A stretch of 33,800 nt of DNA from an uncultured Alphaproteobacteria bacterium (GTDB taxonomy: Bacteria; Pseudomonadota; Alphaproteobacteria; MPNO01; UBA830): the NCBI GenBank assembly GCA_905479125.1, contig CAJQLI010000300.1, forward strand, positions 1 through 33,800, read 5' to 3'. Shown piece after piece: positions 2,581-16,000 of this stretch. Below the pieces are notes generated by a model, which was not told where the DNA came from, searched no databases, and was given only the letters and a program-made list of their open reading frames with translations. The stretch's first letter is position 1. Every line of letters starts with the position of its first letter. Made by a program: the position numbers and the translations under genes.

Positions 2581-3195
2581 CTAGAGTTTGAATTCCGGCA
2601 TGGCCGGCGTCGAGGCTTTGGGTGTTTCTTCTATGACCGGCGCTTCTGACGTCGATGCGTAGCCAGCGCGCTTCACTTCCTTGTCCAGGTCCTGTCGGTT
2701 GCAAAGGCCAAGACCCACCGGGTCACGTGCCGTGATGGTTGCCATGTTCCAGTGCGAGCGATCGCGGATCGCGGTGATCGTCGGCTTGGTTGTGCCGATA
2801 AGGCGCGAAATCTGGGCGTCTTTCAGGTTCGGGAAATGCTTCACGAGCCACGCGATTCCATCCGGTTTATCGCCGCGCCGTGCGACGGGCGTGTAGCGCG
2901 GGCCTTTGGTGCGGGTCGCCGGCCGGGGCACTCTTGTGACAGCCATCGTAAGGCGTTCCGCTGCATCCGCCTCGCAGCGTTCGATTTCTTCCTTCGTCAA
3001 TTGCCCGTTTACGATCGGGTCGTACCCGACCATACCCACGGCAACCTCGTCATCGGCGATGCTTTGGATTTCCAGATCGTGGAGACCGCAGAACGCGCCG
3101 ATCTGGCGGAACGTCAATGCGGTGTTTTCGATCAACCACACGGCGGTGGCCTTTGGCATCAGCGGCTTGGTGCTTTCGTTTGCTTCACGGCTCAT
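2581..3195 (-). CDS. trcR: DUF1013 family, cell cycle transcriptional regulator TrcR
   Basis: MPKATAVWLIENTALTFRQIGAFCGLHDLEIQSIADDEVA...PNLKDAQISRLIGTTKPTITAIRDRSHWN is the highly conserved alphaproteobacterial DUF1013 sequence. Confidence 0.88.
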   Translation of the reverse strand: MSREANESTKPLMPKATAVWLIENTALTFRQIGAFCGLHDLEIQSIADDEVAVGMVGYDPIVNGQLTKEEIERCEADAAERLTMAVTRVPRPATRTKGPRYTPVARRGDKPDGIAWLVKHFPNLKDAQISRLIGTTKPTITAIRDRSHWNMATITARDPVGLGLCNRQDLDKEVKRAGYASTSEAPVIEETPKASTPAMPEFKL

Positions 3196-4735: not shown

Positions 4736-4754
4736 TTAAACTTTTGTTAACCAT
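4736..4754 (+). promoter_or_regulatory. Putative CtrA binding box (TTAA-N7-TTAACCAT)
   Basis: Direct read TTAAACTTTTGTTAACCAT: TTAA (4736-4739), 7 nt, TTAA (4747-4750), CCAT. Matches the alphaproteobacterial CtrA consensus. Confidence 0.7.
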
Positions 4755-4770
4755 TTGGGCCGTAATCTCT

Positions 4771-4873
4771 TTTTTGACGGCTCGGGAGACTGGGCCGTCG
4801 AAAAGGATCCTCATCCCATCCTTTTGACGCCTCCCTGTTGACTTGAGCCGCCCTCCGGGGCGGCTCTTTTTTT
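4771..4873 (+). ncRNA. Candidate structured RNA (sRNA or leader) between a CtrA-like box and a terminator
   Basis: Hairpin GACGGC(4776-4781)/GCCGTC(4794-4799), extendable by TTTTT/GAAAA; hairpin AAAAGGAT(4801-4808)/ATCCTTTT(4818-4825) with loop CCTCATCCC; intrinsic terminator 4845-4873. No supported ORF. Confidence 0.5.
4845..4873 (+). terminator. Intrinsic terminator upstream of the rcdA-like gene
   Basis: GAGCCGCCC TCCG GGGCGGCTC TTTTTTT: 9-bp perfect stem, 4-nt loop, 7 T. Confidence 0.92.
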
Positions 4874-4883
4874 ACTTTACGCT

Positions 4884-4911
4884 TTGTTCAGGTCGCTGGA
4901 AGTAGTGTAAA
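4884..4911 (+). promoter_or_regulatory. Possible sigma70-type promoter immediately upstream of the DUF1465 gene
   Basis: TTGTTC (4884-4889), 16-nt spacer, TGTAAA (4906-4911). The implied start site is almost at the ATG (4921) and no Shine-Dalgarno is visible, so the mRNA might be leaderless. Confidence 0.35.
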
Positions 4912-4920
4912 CACAACGCT

Positions 4921-5370
4921 ATGACGGAAAACCAGCCGAATATGGAACCAAACACGATGTCCGGCCCGATGACTGCTTTTATTGAAGAAGCCTACCAGGA
5001 CACGTTGTCCCTGATGACCGAGTTACGTGATTTTCTGGCGGAGGTTCAGGCCGCGCCCGAGGATCCGAATGCCGACCGGCCCCCAGATGTGCGGGCGCGT
5101 ATCGTTAAGGAAATTTCGTCGATCACGCGGAACCTGACCGAGGCGATGGCATGGCTGTTGCTGCAGAAGGCGGCGGGAGCGGGCGAAATAACCCCCGAAG
5201 AAGCGGAAACCCGGGCTGACGGACTATTGGCACAGGTGGATGCGGATCGAATCGCGGCCGCTGACGGCGCGGAATTGCCGCTGGAAATCCGCGGGTATAT
5301 GGATCGCAGCCGCAGGCTATACGATCAGGTGCTCAGTCTTCGTGAAATGGTGTCAAAACAGACGGGCTGA
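4921..5370 (+). CDS. rcdA: DUF1465 family protein, regulator of CtrA degradation RcdA-like
   Basis: TEAMAWLLLQKAAGAGEITPEEAETRADGLLAQ...LPLEIRGYMDRSRRLYDQVLSLREM resembles the DUF1465/RcdA core. Confidence 0.75.
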   Translation: MTENQPNMEPNTMSGPMTAFIEEAYQDTLSLMTELRDFLAEVQAAPEDPNADRPPDVRARIVKEISSITRNLTEAMAWLLLQKAAGAGEITPEEAETRADGLLAQVDADRIAAADGAELPLEIRGYMDRSRRLYDQVLSLREMVSKQTG

Positions 5371-5821: not shown

Positions 5822-7225
5822 TCAGCGCTGGGTCAGCTTGAATTCTATCCGCCGGTTACGGCGATAGGCGACCTCGTCGTTTCGCGCGTCCAATGGCTGA
5901 AATTGGCCGAATCCGGCCGCGACAAGCCGCTTGGCCGGGACCCCGAATGCGCGAAGCTGTTTCACGACCGCGATGGCGCGGGCTGATGACAATTCCCAGT
6001 TGGACGGAAATTTGGCGGTTCGTATGGGCAGGTTGTCTGTATGTCCGTCAACCCGCAGGACCCAGTTAAGCCCATCCGGGATGCGGTTCGATATTTCGTT
6101 CAACGTTTTTGCGAGCTTCTCGATCTGTCCTCTGCCGCCGGGGTTCAGGTCCGACGAGGCGGAGGGAAACAATACTTCTGACTGGAACACGAAACGGTCG
6201 CCGACAATGCGGATATCCTGCTGATTGCCGAGGGCCTCGCGCAGCCGCCCGAAAAATTCTGACCGGTAGCGGGCAAGTTCCGCGACCTTGCTGGCAAGTG
6301 CCTGGTTCAGACGTTTGCCCAGCGCGGTGATCTGCACATTCTGTTCCGCTGCCCTGGCTTCCGATGCGCCGAGGGCGGCGTTGAGCCGGGCAAGCTGACG
6401 CCGGAGCGCGACGAGCTGACGGTTCAGCGCCGCGACCTGTTTCTTGGCCTCGGCGCTTTCACGTTGTTCGTCCGTCAGGTCCTCGCCGATCCGCTGCGCC
6501 TGTGCGCCGAGCTCTGCGATGGTGAGATTTTTCTGCGCAATATCCTTTTGTGCAAGCGCCGTGCGTTCCTGTTCGGTCGAAAGCTTTGCTTCGAGTTCTT
6601 TCGACCGGTCGCGAAGCGCCGTGAGTGATGCGTCGCGGGTCTGCACGGTGGCGGCAAGTTCGCCAACCCGCTTTTCCAGGCTTGTACGAAGCTCGCGCAG
6701 CGCCTTTAAATCCCGGTTGAGTTGGGCGATCTCGCCAAGCTGCGCCTCGATCATGGACTTGTCCGCGGTAACCGATTTTCGCGCTTCTTCCAACTCTGCG
6801 GCGGTGCTGTTGGCGGATGCCAGGGCGGTATCGAGTTTTCCCTGTAGGTCGTCCCGCGCGCGTGTCGCATCGGCGAGCATGGATTCCAGTGCATCTTTCT
6901 GGGGCAGCAGCTCAGACAGTTGGCTCGACAGACGTTCGCGGGTGGCGGTCGACGAGGACAGATCTGCCGATAATTGCGAAACTTCGTCCCGGAGCCGGAC
7001 ATTCGCCGTGCGTTCCAGCGACAGCATTTCGCCAAGCTCGGCGACCTGACGGTTCAGGCGTTCGAGCGCCTGGTTTCGACCGGACAGCATTTCACTCAGG
7101 AAAAACTGCGCCAGCGTGAAGACCATCAGCAGGAAAATAATAATAATAAGCAGCGCTGAAAGCGCATCGACAAAGCCGGGCCAGATATCGAGCGTGGTTC
7201 GCTGTCGCCGCGACGAGCCGGGCAT
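5822..7225 (-). CDS. MotB/OmpA-like inner-membrane protein: N-terminal TM, long coiled coil, C-terminal OmpA-like peptidoglycan-binding domain
   Basis: FVDALSALLIIIIFLLMVFTLAQFFL TM helix, repeated heptads, then LRVDGHTDNLPIRTAKFPSNWELSSARAIAVVKQL (OmpA-like). Confidence 0.85.
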   Translation of the reverse strand: MPGSSRRQRTTLDIWPGFVDALSALLIIIIFLLMVFTLAQFFLSEMLSGRNQALERLNRQVAELGEMLSLERTANVRLRDEVSQLSADLSSSTATRERLSSQLSELLPQKDALESMLADATRARDDLQGKLDTALASANSTAAELEEARKSVTADKSMIEAQLGEIAQLNRDLKALRELRTSLEKRVGELAATVQTRDASLTALRDRSKELEAKLSTEQERTALAQKDIAQKNLTIAELGAQAQRIGEDLTDEQRESAEAKKQVAALNRQLVALRRQLARLNAALGASEARAAEQNVQITALGKRLNQALASKVAELARYRSEFFGRLREALGNQQDIRIVGDRFVFQSEVLFPSASSDLNPGGRGQIEKLAKTLNEISNRIPDGLNWVLRVDGHTDNLPIRTAKFPSNWELSSARAIAVVKQLRAFGVPAKRLVAAGFGQFQPLDARNDEVAYRRNRRIEFKLTQR

Positions 7226-7249
7226 TTACTTTATTCCCCCGCCGCGGGC

Positions 7250-8401
7250 CTACCGGCCCGCTTTTTCGGCGATCGCCGCGAGGGTACGCGACAGGACCCG
7301 TATTTCACTCCGCAATTCACCGATCATCTCGGCCCGCCCGGTGGCTGTTTCTTCGAGCAGGCGGGAAAGGTGGATGTCGATATTACGGATATGGGCCGGA
7401 ACTTCGTCGCTCCCGGAACCGCTGCCGAGTGCCGGCCGGTTCAGACTTTCTTCCAACCGCGACAGGATAGGTTTCAGGTCCATCTGGCTCTCCGCCAGTT
7501 TCACCATCAGGTTCTGTTCGGTCTTCATCTGGTCGGTAAGCGTCCCCAGGCGGTCCGCAAGATCGGTGATTCCCGAATTCGCACCGATCCGTGATTCCTC
7601 TCCGCGCTGCAGGGTACGTTGCAGGTTTTCCAGCCCGTCGGCGGTCTGTTCGAGCAGGGCCTGCACATAGGCCGGGACGGACTGATCCCCTTCGCCGATT
7701 GATCCGCCGGAACCCAGCCGTGTCTGGCCGGACAACCAGTCTTCCAGTTCGTTGTAAAACCGGTTCTGCGCCTGTCCGGCCTGAAGTTCGAGAAAGCCCA
7801 GAACCAGAGAGCCCGCAAGTCCGAACAACGACGATGAAAATGCCGTGCCCATGCCTGATAACGGCGCCTGCAGGCCTTTCTTGAGGTCGTCGAACACGGT
7901 GCCCATTTCGCCGGACCCGACATTGAGGGTGGCGATAACGTCGCTGACTGCGCCGATGGTCTGCAACAACCCCCAGAACGTGCCCAGCAGGCCGAGGAAA
8001 ATCAGCAGGCCGATCAGGTAGCGGGAAATATCGCGGGATTCATCCAGCCTCGATGCCAGCCCGTCCAGAAGCGAGCGCATCGACATCGTCGACAGGCTGA
8101 ACCTTGCCGTGCGTTCGCCGAGCATGGCCGCCATTGGCGCCAGCATGCGCGGTTCAGGTGACGCGGACAGCGTTGGCTGACCGGCGCGAAAGCTCTCGAG
8201 CCAGGCAACATCGCTGGTCAGGACGAAAACAGTCCGGAAAATATAGACGATGCCGAGAAGCAGAACGCCGATGATAAGGCCGTTCAAGGCTGCGTTTGCC
8301 ATGAACGCATCCCGGATGCCGCCGGACAGAACCGCTGCAAGCACAAGCACGGCGCCGAGGAAGACGACCATTCGGATCAGATAGCGCCGCGGGTGGGTCA
8401 T
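7250..8401 (-). CDS. MotA/TolQ/ExbB-like proton channel family membrane protein
   Basis: YLIGLLIFLGLLGTFWGLLQTIGAV...GLQAPLSGMGTAFSSSLFGLAGSLVLGFLELQ is characteristic of MotA/ExbB family TM segments. Confidence 0.8.
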   Translation of the reverse strand: MTHPRRYLIRMVVFLGAVLVLAAVLSGGIRDAFMANAALNGLIIGVLLLGIVYIFRTVFVLTSDVAWLESFRAGQPTLSASPEPRMLAPMAAMLGERTARFSLSTMSMRSLLDGLASRLDESRDISRYLIGLLIFLGLLGTFWGLLQTIGAVSDVIATLNVGSGEMGTVFDDLKKGLQAPLSGMGTAFSSSLFGLAGSLVLGFLELQAGQAQNRFYNELEDWLSGQTRLGSGGSIGEGDQSVPAYVQALLEQTADGLENLQRTLQRGEESRIGANSGITDLADRLGTLTDQMKTEQNLMVKLAESQMDLKPILSRLEESLNRPALGSGSGSDEVPAHIRNIDIHLSRLLEETATGRAEMIGELRSEIRVLSRTLAAIAEKAGR

Positions 8402-10513: not shown

Positions 10514-11080
10514 TCAGTCCTTGGCGCGCTCTACGTAGGTGGCGTCTTCGGTGTTCACGACGATCCGTGTGCCTGTCCCGATATGTGGCGGGACCATCAC
10601 GCGGACGCCGTTTTCGACCATGGCCGGCTTATAGGAAGACGACGCGGTCTGGCCTTTCACCACCGCGTCCGCTTCCGTGACCTCCATGGTGACGTGCTGC
10701 GGCAGTTTTGCCCCCGCGACCACGCCGTCGATCAGCTCTGCTGTGACGACCATGCCGTCCTGCAGGAACGCCGCCGAATCCCCGATATCGTCTTTCGCGA
10801 GGGAAAACTGTTCATAGGATTCGCTGTCCATGAACATGATCTGTTCGTCTTCGGCATAGAGATACGTCGCGTCTCTTTCCTCGACCATCAGCTTTTCGAC
10901 GGTCTCGCCGGTCCGGAAGCGTTCGTTGGTCTTATTGCCGGATTTCAGGTCGCGCATTTCGACCTGGATAAAGGCATTGCCCTTGCCGGGCAGCAGTATC
11001 TCGGTTTTGAGTACGCGCCATTGCTTGTTGTCATGCTCGATGACGTTGCCGCCTCGAATGGTATTAGCCTGGATTTTCAT
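10514..11080 (-). CDS. efp: Translation elongation factor P
   Basis: 188 aa; MKIQANTIRGGNVIEHDNKQWRVLKTEILLPGKGNAFIQVEMRDLKSG; PGKG loop Lys present. Confidence 0.97.
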   Translation of the reverse strand: MKIQANTIRGGNVIEHDNKQWRVLKTEILLPGKGNAFIQVEMRDLKSGNKTNERFRTGETVEKLMVEERDATYLYAEDEQIMFMDSESYEQFSLAKDDIGDSAAFLQDGMVVTAELIDGVVAGAKLPQHVTMEVTEADAVVKGQTASSSYKPAMVENGVRVMVPPHIGTGTRIVVNTEDATYVERAKD

Positions 11081-11171
11081 CCTGCAGATCCGCTTTGTAA
11101 GTTTTCCGGGTAAGGGCGGCGGAAACTATCAGCTTGCCCCGGAATTGGCAATCATATCGGCAGCTTCCGAA

Positions 11172-12218
11172 TCACCCATCATTATCGGCATAATCGTGTG
11201 TTTGGCCGCGGAAATCGCGCAAATTCCATCTGCCGGGGAGTGCGCCGTCAGGGGTGACGTCCTGTGCCGGGGCTTTGCCGTGGCCGCCGGGGATATCGAC
11301 CACATAGGTCGGCTGGCACAGGCCTGAAATATTGCCACGCAGCGCGGATACCAGCGCGCGTCCTTCCTCCAGCGTCAGCCGGAACTTTGCCGTGCCGCGG
11401 GCGCGGTCGGGGTGGTGCAGGTAATAAGGTTTGACCTTCAGCGCGATCAGGCGGCGCATCAGGTCGGTCAGTGCATCAACGGTGTTGTTCACGCCTTTGA
11501 GCAGCACCGTCTGCGACAACAGCGGGATGCCGGCCCGGGTCAGCCGGTCGCAGGCGGCGGCAACATCATCGGTCAGTTCGCGGGCGTGGTTGGTGTGCAG
11601 CGCCATCCAGACGGGGATGTCCGATGTCAGCGCCGCGATCAGCCCGTCGGTCACGCGGTCGGGCAGGATGACCGGCACGCGGGTGTGGATGCGCAGGTTG
11701 TTCAGGTGCGGGATTGCATTCAGACGGGCGACGATGCGAGCCAGACGCACGTCCGACAGCGACAGCGGGTCGCCACCGGTCAGAATGACTTCGCGAATCC
11801 CGGGGTGCTCTTCGATGTATCGGTAGGCGACCTCCAGGTCGGCGGCGGTTGGCGTGCCCGCCGCCCGGCCCACGCGGTCGCGGCGAAAGCAGTACCGGCA
11901 ATAGACGGGGCAGGCCAGTGTCGGCATCAGCAGCACGCGGTCGGGATAGCGATGAACAAGACCGCGGACCGGTGAATGGGTCTCGTCGCCGATGGGATCG
12001 TCAAGTTCGTCATCGGCCCGGATCAGTTCGGCAGGGTCAGGCACGAACTGGCGCGCGATTGGATCAGTCGGGTCGGCCGGATCTATCAGTGCCGCAAGTC
12101 CCGACGGGATCGCGATGCTGTATTCGGTGCCGACCGCATCGAGCGCGACGACCTGCGATTCGGCGGCGAGCCCTGCCCGGGCAAGGTCGGCACCGGTGCG
12201 CAGCGTGGCGGATTTCAT
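11172..12218 (-). CDS. epmB: EF-P (R)-beta-lysine mutase EpmB / lysine-2,3-aminomutase-like radical SAM protein
   Basis: CPVYCRYCFRR (CX3CX2C radical SAM motif), DIPGGHGKAP (PLP-Lys motif), located next to efp. Confidence 0.9.
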   Translation of the reverse strand: MKSATLRTGADLARAGLAAESQVVALDAVGTEYSIAIPSGLAALIDPADPTDPIARQFVPDPAELIRADDELDDPIGDETHSPVRGLVHRYPDRVLLMPTLACPVYCRYCFRRDRVGRAAGTPTAADLEVAYRYIEEHPGIREVILTGGDPLSLSDVRLARIVARLNAIPHLNNLRIHTRVPVILPDRVTDGLIAALTSDIPVWMALHTNHARELTDDVAAACDRLTRAGIPLLSQTVLLKGVNNTVDALTDLMRRLIALKVKPYYLHHPDRARGTAKFRLTLEEGRALVSALRGNISGLCQPTYVVDIPGGHGKAPAQDVTPDGALPGRWNLRDFRGQTHDYADNDG

Positions 12219-15841: not shown

Positions 15842-16000
15842 GGCGGGGCTGTCCGGTGCGATGTGTCTCTACATCCCTGGGGCCAATACATCTCTCTAGG
15901 GAGCTGTCTCTGCGGGGACCTTGGTCTCAGCACGCGGCGCCCACCTGTCTCGTACAGGCCACAGAGGATCACATAGACTGCCGGCTGTGACGGCTCCGCC
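15842..16000 (+). ncRNA. ssrS: 6S RNA (SsrS)
   Basis: Lies between zapA and the 5-FTHF cyclo-ligase gene, the classic ssrS position. Closing stem GGCGGGGCTGTC (15842-15853) pairs fully, with G-U wobbles, to GACGGCTCCGCC (15989-16000). About 159 nt. Confidence 0.82.

Follow-up and report, generated by a model that had tools for sequence, protein, structure and literature searches.

The box, the RNA and the rcdA-like gene

The stretch of DNA analysed here (33.8 kb, referred to as the window) carries on its forward strand a CtrA-type box, a predicted small RNA (sRNA) and an rcdA-like gene, in that order. CtrA is a master cell-cycle regulator of the Alphaproteobacteria. The box, TTAA-N7-TTAACCAT (4736..4754, +), was correctly placed by the original prediction and is an exact match: TTAAACTTTTGTTAA occupies 4736-4750, and the following CCAT extends it to 4754. 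It is the sole full TTAA-N7-TTAA on both strands of the window, where 0.07 would be expected from shuffled sequences. A full box at promoter distance marks the site as a putative CtrA-regulated promoter, and a candidate -10 element (TAATCT, 4763..4768, +) was read by eye between the box and the RNA.

The sRNA is predicted, from a covariance model, its fold and covariation, to span ~98 nt (4776..4873, +), with its 5' end near 4776. It scores 102 bits with R1, the covariance model for the order, among whose building sequences the window copy is included. Folding of 4775-4873 gave an energy of -47.5 kcal/mol (z = -4.9) and three hairpins, outperforming 200 of 200 shuffled sequences. The layout comprises a 5' hairpin, a hairpin with a C loop, a single-stranded GACGCCUCCCUGUU and a terminator. 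The first hairpin (SL1, 4776..4800, +) differs in sequence among relatives, most of which keep a hairpin there, and the second (SL2, 4801..4825, +; AAAAGGAU-CCUCAUCCC-AUCCUUUU, with a C-rich loop) is supported by the folds and by covariation. The region GACGCCUCCCUGUUGACUU (4826..4844, +), strongly conserved across 17 order copies and common to the SorY, SorX, BjrC1505 and mmgR models, is anti-Shine-Dalgarno-like and would serve as the pairing seed. To call the CCUCCC motif single-stranded is a simplification, because in many single-sequence folds it is not fully open, a weak hairpin holding it in its loop or some of its bases being paired. The intrinsic terminator (4845..4873, +), which also shows covariation, consists of a stem of 9 pairs, 8 of them G-C, with a loop of 4 (4845-4866), followed by T7 (4867-4873); hairpins and terminator are as originally claimed.

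In a class-wide alignment, which was fitted to the structure of the model and so favours that structure, 97.7% of cells form pairs and 11 of the 12 modelled pairs have changed on both sides, values reached by none of 500 shuffles. An RNAalifold consensus of the order copies only missed SL1, because its sequence varies.

The reading frame downstream (4921..5370, +) had been called DUF1465/RcdA-like, and its protein passes the family search for PF07323 with 50.6 bits against a cut-off of 25. Compared with the same-genus genome G002, its codon positions 1/2/3 are conserved to 84/94/65%, a pattern of purifying selection. Similarity to the RcdA of two genomes of the same family (G002 and G004) starts at the in-frame ATG 4957 (residue 13), so the likely true start may lie 36 nt further on; the gap of 47 nt originally given between terminator and start codon holds for ATG 4921 and becomes 83 nt for 4957.

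Other features of the window include a gene for TrcR, a transcriptional cell cycle regulator (2581-3195, -; PF06242, 209 bits), ~1.5 kb from the RNA locus, and a 6S RNA (15843-16000, +; 61.3 bits). At 5822-8401 (-), an OmpA-domain coiled-coil protein adjoins a membrane protein; the two are MotA/MotB-like by eye, and Pfam backs only OmpA. At 10514-12218 (-), an elongation factor P (EF-P) gene and a lysine 2,3-aminomutase-like gene, both recognized by eye, suggest an EF-P modification pair.

Conservation of the RNA upstream of rcdA

By family search, DUF1465 is present in 13 of the 27 genomes of the order. Twelve order genomes have a nearly identical RNA upstream of rcdA; strong copies (>70 bits) were found in 12 order genomes, all 12 with rcdA, and in none of the 14 without a DUF1465 match. 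The thirteenth rcdA-bearing genome (G017), which has no strong copy, has its rcdA at a contig edge. RNA and rcdA have been lost together, their co-occurrence giving ~7e-7 in a Fisher's exact test worked by hand with kinship ignored. The order copies share the core GGATCCTCATCCCATCC-N-TTTGACGCCTCCCTGTT and the GAGCCGCC terminator, and most have a TTAA-N7-TTAA(C) box 91-95 nt 5' of the GCCTCCCTG seed. Three genomes (G014, G018 and G016) contain tandem copies spaced by ~200 bp and terminated separately, and G010 contains duplicated copies broken over contig ends. The full box accompanies all of these duplicated copies except the first in G016, whose box is imperfect, and one in G010, whose upstream DNA is cut off.

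Across the class, R1 matches 94 of 387 genomes, while the Rfam BjrC1505 model has matches in 41 and exceeds its cut-off in 16 of these. When the positions of RNA matches were compared with those of DUF1465, 21 further class genomes proved to have the RNA immediately before rcdA and in the same orientation, and 12 had it within ~5.5 kb. At 125.9 bits, the top BjrC1505 match lies directly upstream of the DUF1465 gene in a Bradyrhizobium-like genome (G386; 8.0 Mb, single contig), and in Shinella and Methylobacterium bullatum the RNA is likewise upstream of a DUF1465 match. The gene order in S. meliloti Ak57 is DUF1192-RNA-DUF1465-rpmE; since R1 scores are low in Sinorhizobium (19 bits), the RNA there was identified by position, box, CTCCCTGTT motif and terminator jointly. 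Copies away from rcdA also occur: the two are 41-45 kb apart in G193, G066 and G289 and on different contigs in several draft genomes, and G027 has two RNA copies and no DUF1465 match. The co-conservation at issue in the original prediction is seen in relatives, box, hairpins and terminator recurring upstream of rcdA in both order and class. On this sequence evidence the location upstream of rcdA is ancient, so that the sRNA and rcdA would be neighbouring members of the CtrA regulon.

A perfect box precedes 26 of 65 RNA copies, where dinucleotide shuffles would give 0.8, and a box with at most one mismatch precedes 56 of 65 (~10 expected), mostly at positions -95 to -82 relative to the seed. 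The excess is found whether copies adjoin rcdA (18/21), lie near it (11/12) or sit elsewhere (13/16). Because the intergenic region is AT-rich, the box might be a chance match and the promoter of the RNA unrelated to it; the near-constant position and the strong excess over 65 copies, which include relatives of S. meliloti, with its published CtrA binding upstream of rcdA, make this extremely improbable and already bring it close to refutation. In S. meliloti, Shinella and Sinorhizobium sp. K101, there are two perfect boxes, one 5' of the RNA and the other between its terminator and rcdA (L238:2815-2829 and L240:2819-2833). Outside the Rhizobiaceae such a second box is merely sporadic, and it was rejected as a consistent feature.

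A predicted trans-acting sRNA and its relatives

The original prediction allowed for either an sRNA or an attenuator. The RNA could be the 5' leader of rcdA, the terminator a regulated attenuator and the short RNA merely its terminated product, as the synteny and co-loss with rcdA and the short distance between the two in the window's order would suit. Such a leader is hard to reconcile with complete copies in tandem, with copies that carry the same box though they lie ~40 kb from rcdA or belong to a genome in which DUF1465 was not matched, with an RNA-to-rcdA spacing that ranges from ~25 to ~500 nt, or with the separate box of rcdA in the Rhizobiaceae; moreover, informal inspection of the folds brought no consistent alternative (antiterminator) pairing to notice. 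We consider it quite unlikely that the RNA is solely a leader. For the same reasons (tandem copies, copies away from rcdA, variable spacing and the separate rcdA box), a trans-acting sRNA is favoured over a pure attenuator: the locus is probably an independent small-RNA gene with a CtrA-box promoter, terminated and most likely acting in trans, with read-through into rcdA possible. The sRNA part of the earlier proposal is thereby preferred to attenuation as the sole role.

We hypothesize that a promoter with the full CtrA box would drive an RNA of ~98 nt that forms three hairpins, contains the conserved CCUCCCUGUU motif and ends at the intrinsic terminator. The RNA would act in trans, probably with Hfq, and its C-rich motifs would pair with the ribosome-binding sites of target mRNAs, by analogy with related alphaproteobacterial sRNAs. 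The rcdA gene, about 25-100 nt downstream in the order, may also be fed by terminator read-through; where the terminator-rcdA gap narrows to 25-50 nt, as in some order members, rcdA could be transcribed chiefly in this way. At the level of sequence there is strong support for the RNA first proposed, driven from a CtrA box, closed by a terminator and lying upstream of rcdA, with box, RNA and synteny kept class-wide.

Published data can be set beside this proposal. In S. meliloti, a CtrA ChIP-seq signal was reported at the rcdA promoter, with rcdA mRNA unchanged on CtrA depletion (PMC4433202), and in Agrobacterium rcdA has multiple TSSs and, further upstream, a CtrA site (PMC10469942). The former data fit a CtrA-driven RNA between box and rcdA, and the latter agree with it too, each coming from a study not designed for that question. 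In the Rhizobiaceae, the second box directly before rcdA may contribute to the ChIP signal alongside the sRNA box.

Assignment of the window RNA to a known Rfam family was rejected, as none was matched at its gathering score. BjrC1505 (RF02356), the closest named relative, gives a full-length match of 39.8 bits; its gathering score is 50, which homologues in G386, G035 and Methylobacterium exceed. BjrC1505 matches share the position upstream of rcdA, a trait found here and outside the Rfam definition: the likenesses are a place upstream of DUF1465/rcdA in the Bradyrhizobium-like genome, a module of GACGCCUCCCUGUU with a GAGCCGCC-type terminator, and a CtrA-like box upstream (G386, one mismatch), whereas the window copy has other SL1 and loop sequences. 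Neither a link of BjrC1505 to CtrA or rcdA, nor one of any sRNA to the rcdA upstream region, was found in the literature searched, a body that leaves outside it most subscription papers and the original description of BjrC1505.

The alphaR8/MmgR/SisA-D family (RF00519) comprises trans-acting sRNAs that associate with Hfq and have an anti-SD core (PMC12559287), and it resembles the window RNA in its hairpin, single-stranded CCUCCCU motif and terminator. It differs in its core, UUUCCUCCCU, in place of which the window RNA has GACGCCUCCCU, and in usually adjoining an FGase gene (PMC12559287); the window RNA reaches 35.3 bits against a threshold of 41, and its genome has a separate alphaR8/mmgR paralogue (C408) with no CtrA box. 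SorY and SorX (RF02651, RF02784) have the CCUCCCUGUUGGACUU and terminator module, but are Rhodobacter stress sRNAs for which the window RNA falls far under gathering (43.5/111 and 28.4/46.6 bits). Since the 3' module is common to BjrC1505, SorY, SorX and alphaR8/MmgR/SisA and no cut-off is reached, the window RNA is a divergent relative rather than a member, filed by analogy as one that would work like these relatives. The promoter of the Caulobacter sRNA CcnA also has a CtrA box, and CcnA acts in the CtrA network (PMC8959179); it overlaps part of the replication origin, a different locus. CcnA, EcpR1 and GspR, all sRNAs tied to the CtrA network, are not located upstream of rcdA according to the papers that name them. 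At L092, L093, L095, L096 and L059, other sRNAs of the CCUCCCUG type were seen that lack a CtrA box and in some cases have an ACGTCTCCCAGACGT hairpin; they are apparently another paralogous sRNA group.

CtrA in the window's lineage

With a closer query and a loose E-value limit, a ctrA ortholog was not found in the window's assembly, which at 90.7% completeness leaves absence unproven, nor in 24 of its 26 order relatives; the only order orthologs are in G014 (frameshifted) and G016. In the class, the YGGxDEP codon signature, a proxy for CtrA, was matched in 44 of 47 RNA-bearing genomes. The best OmpR-type match in the window genome was rejected as a CtrA substitute, because it is only 41% identical and has a different DNA-binding domain. 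ChpT was rejected as a witness of the pathway, being present in few order members and not found in the window genome. A flagellar/chemotaxis cluster is conserved (L231 in G012, L229 in G018, L234 and L236), the G012 copy being without the ctrA-cheR-cheB-cheY segment; in G018, synteny breaks inside cheB.

Box and RNA in this lineage could be relics of a CtrA circuit whose regulator has been lost. Such decay would agree with the missing ctrA in 25 of 27 order assemblies, with the complete genome G012, where ctrA, cheR, cheB and cheY are absent from an otherwise syntenic locus and RNA and rcdA are absent too, and with decay of the box, the RNA or the RcdA frame in G005, G004 and G021 (G002, G005 and G021 have a frameshifted or broken RcdA, possibly through assembly errors). 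Against it, the box (18/19 identical, 95%) and the RNA (94%) are far closer to those of G002 than flanking non-coding DNA (43-64%; 52% for the intergenic DNA 5' of the box), and the codon pattern of rcdA is that of purifying selection. A relic is accordingly conceivable but rather unlikely. In the window lineage, some substitute may occupy the box, the box may have become a relic only recently, or the assembly may lack a ctrA that the genome has.

The negative-feedback loop of the original prediction is not supported for this organism. CtrA-RcdA feedback is doubtful here, because the searches brought up no ctrA ortholog, even though the genus keeps box, RNA and RcdA. Elsewhere, ctrA mRNA was rejected as a direct target: in 24 genomes, duplex energies of the RNA with ctrA leaders were no better than with shuffled leaders.

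The locus suggests that the CtrA network has an RNA arm, seemingly undescribed so far, with CtrA itself not found in the window genome. In the window's order, loss of ctrA goes alongside loss of the RNA and rcdA. Few sRNAs are tied to the CtrA network, and a CtrA-box sRNA next to rcdA across many families would explain how CtrA binds there in S. meliloti without a change in rcdA mRNA.
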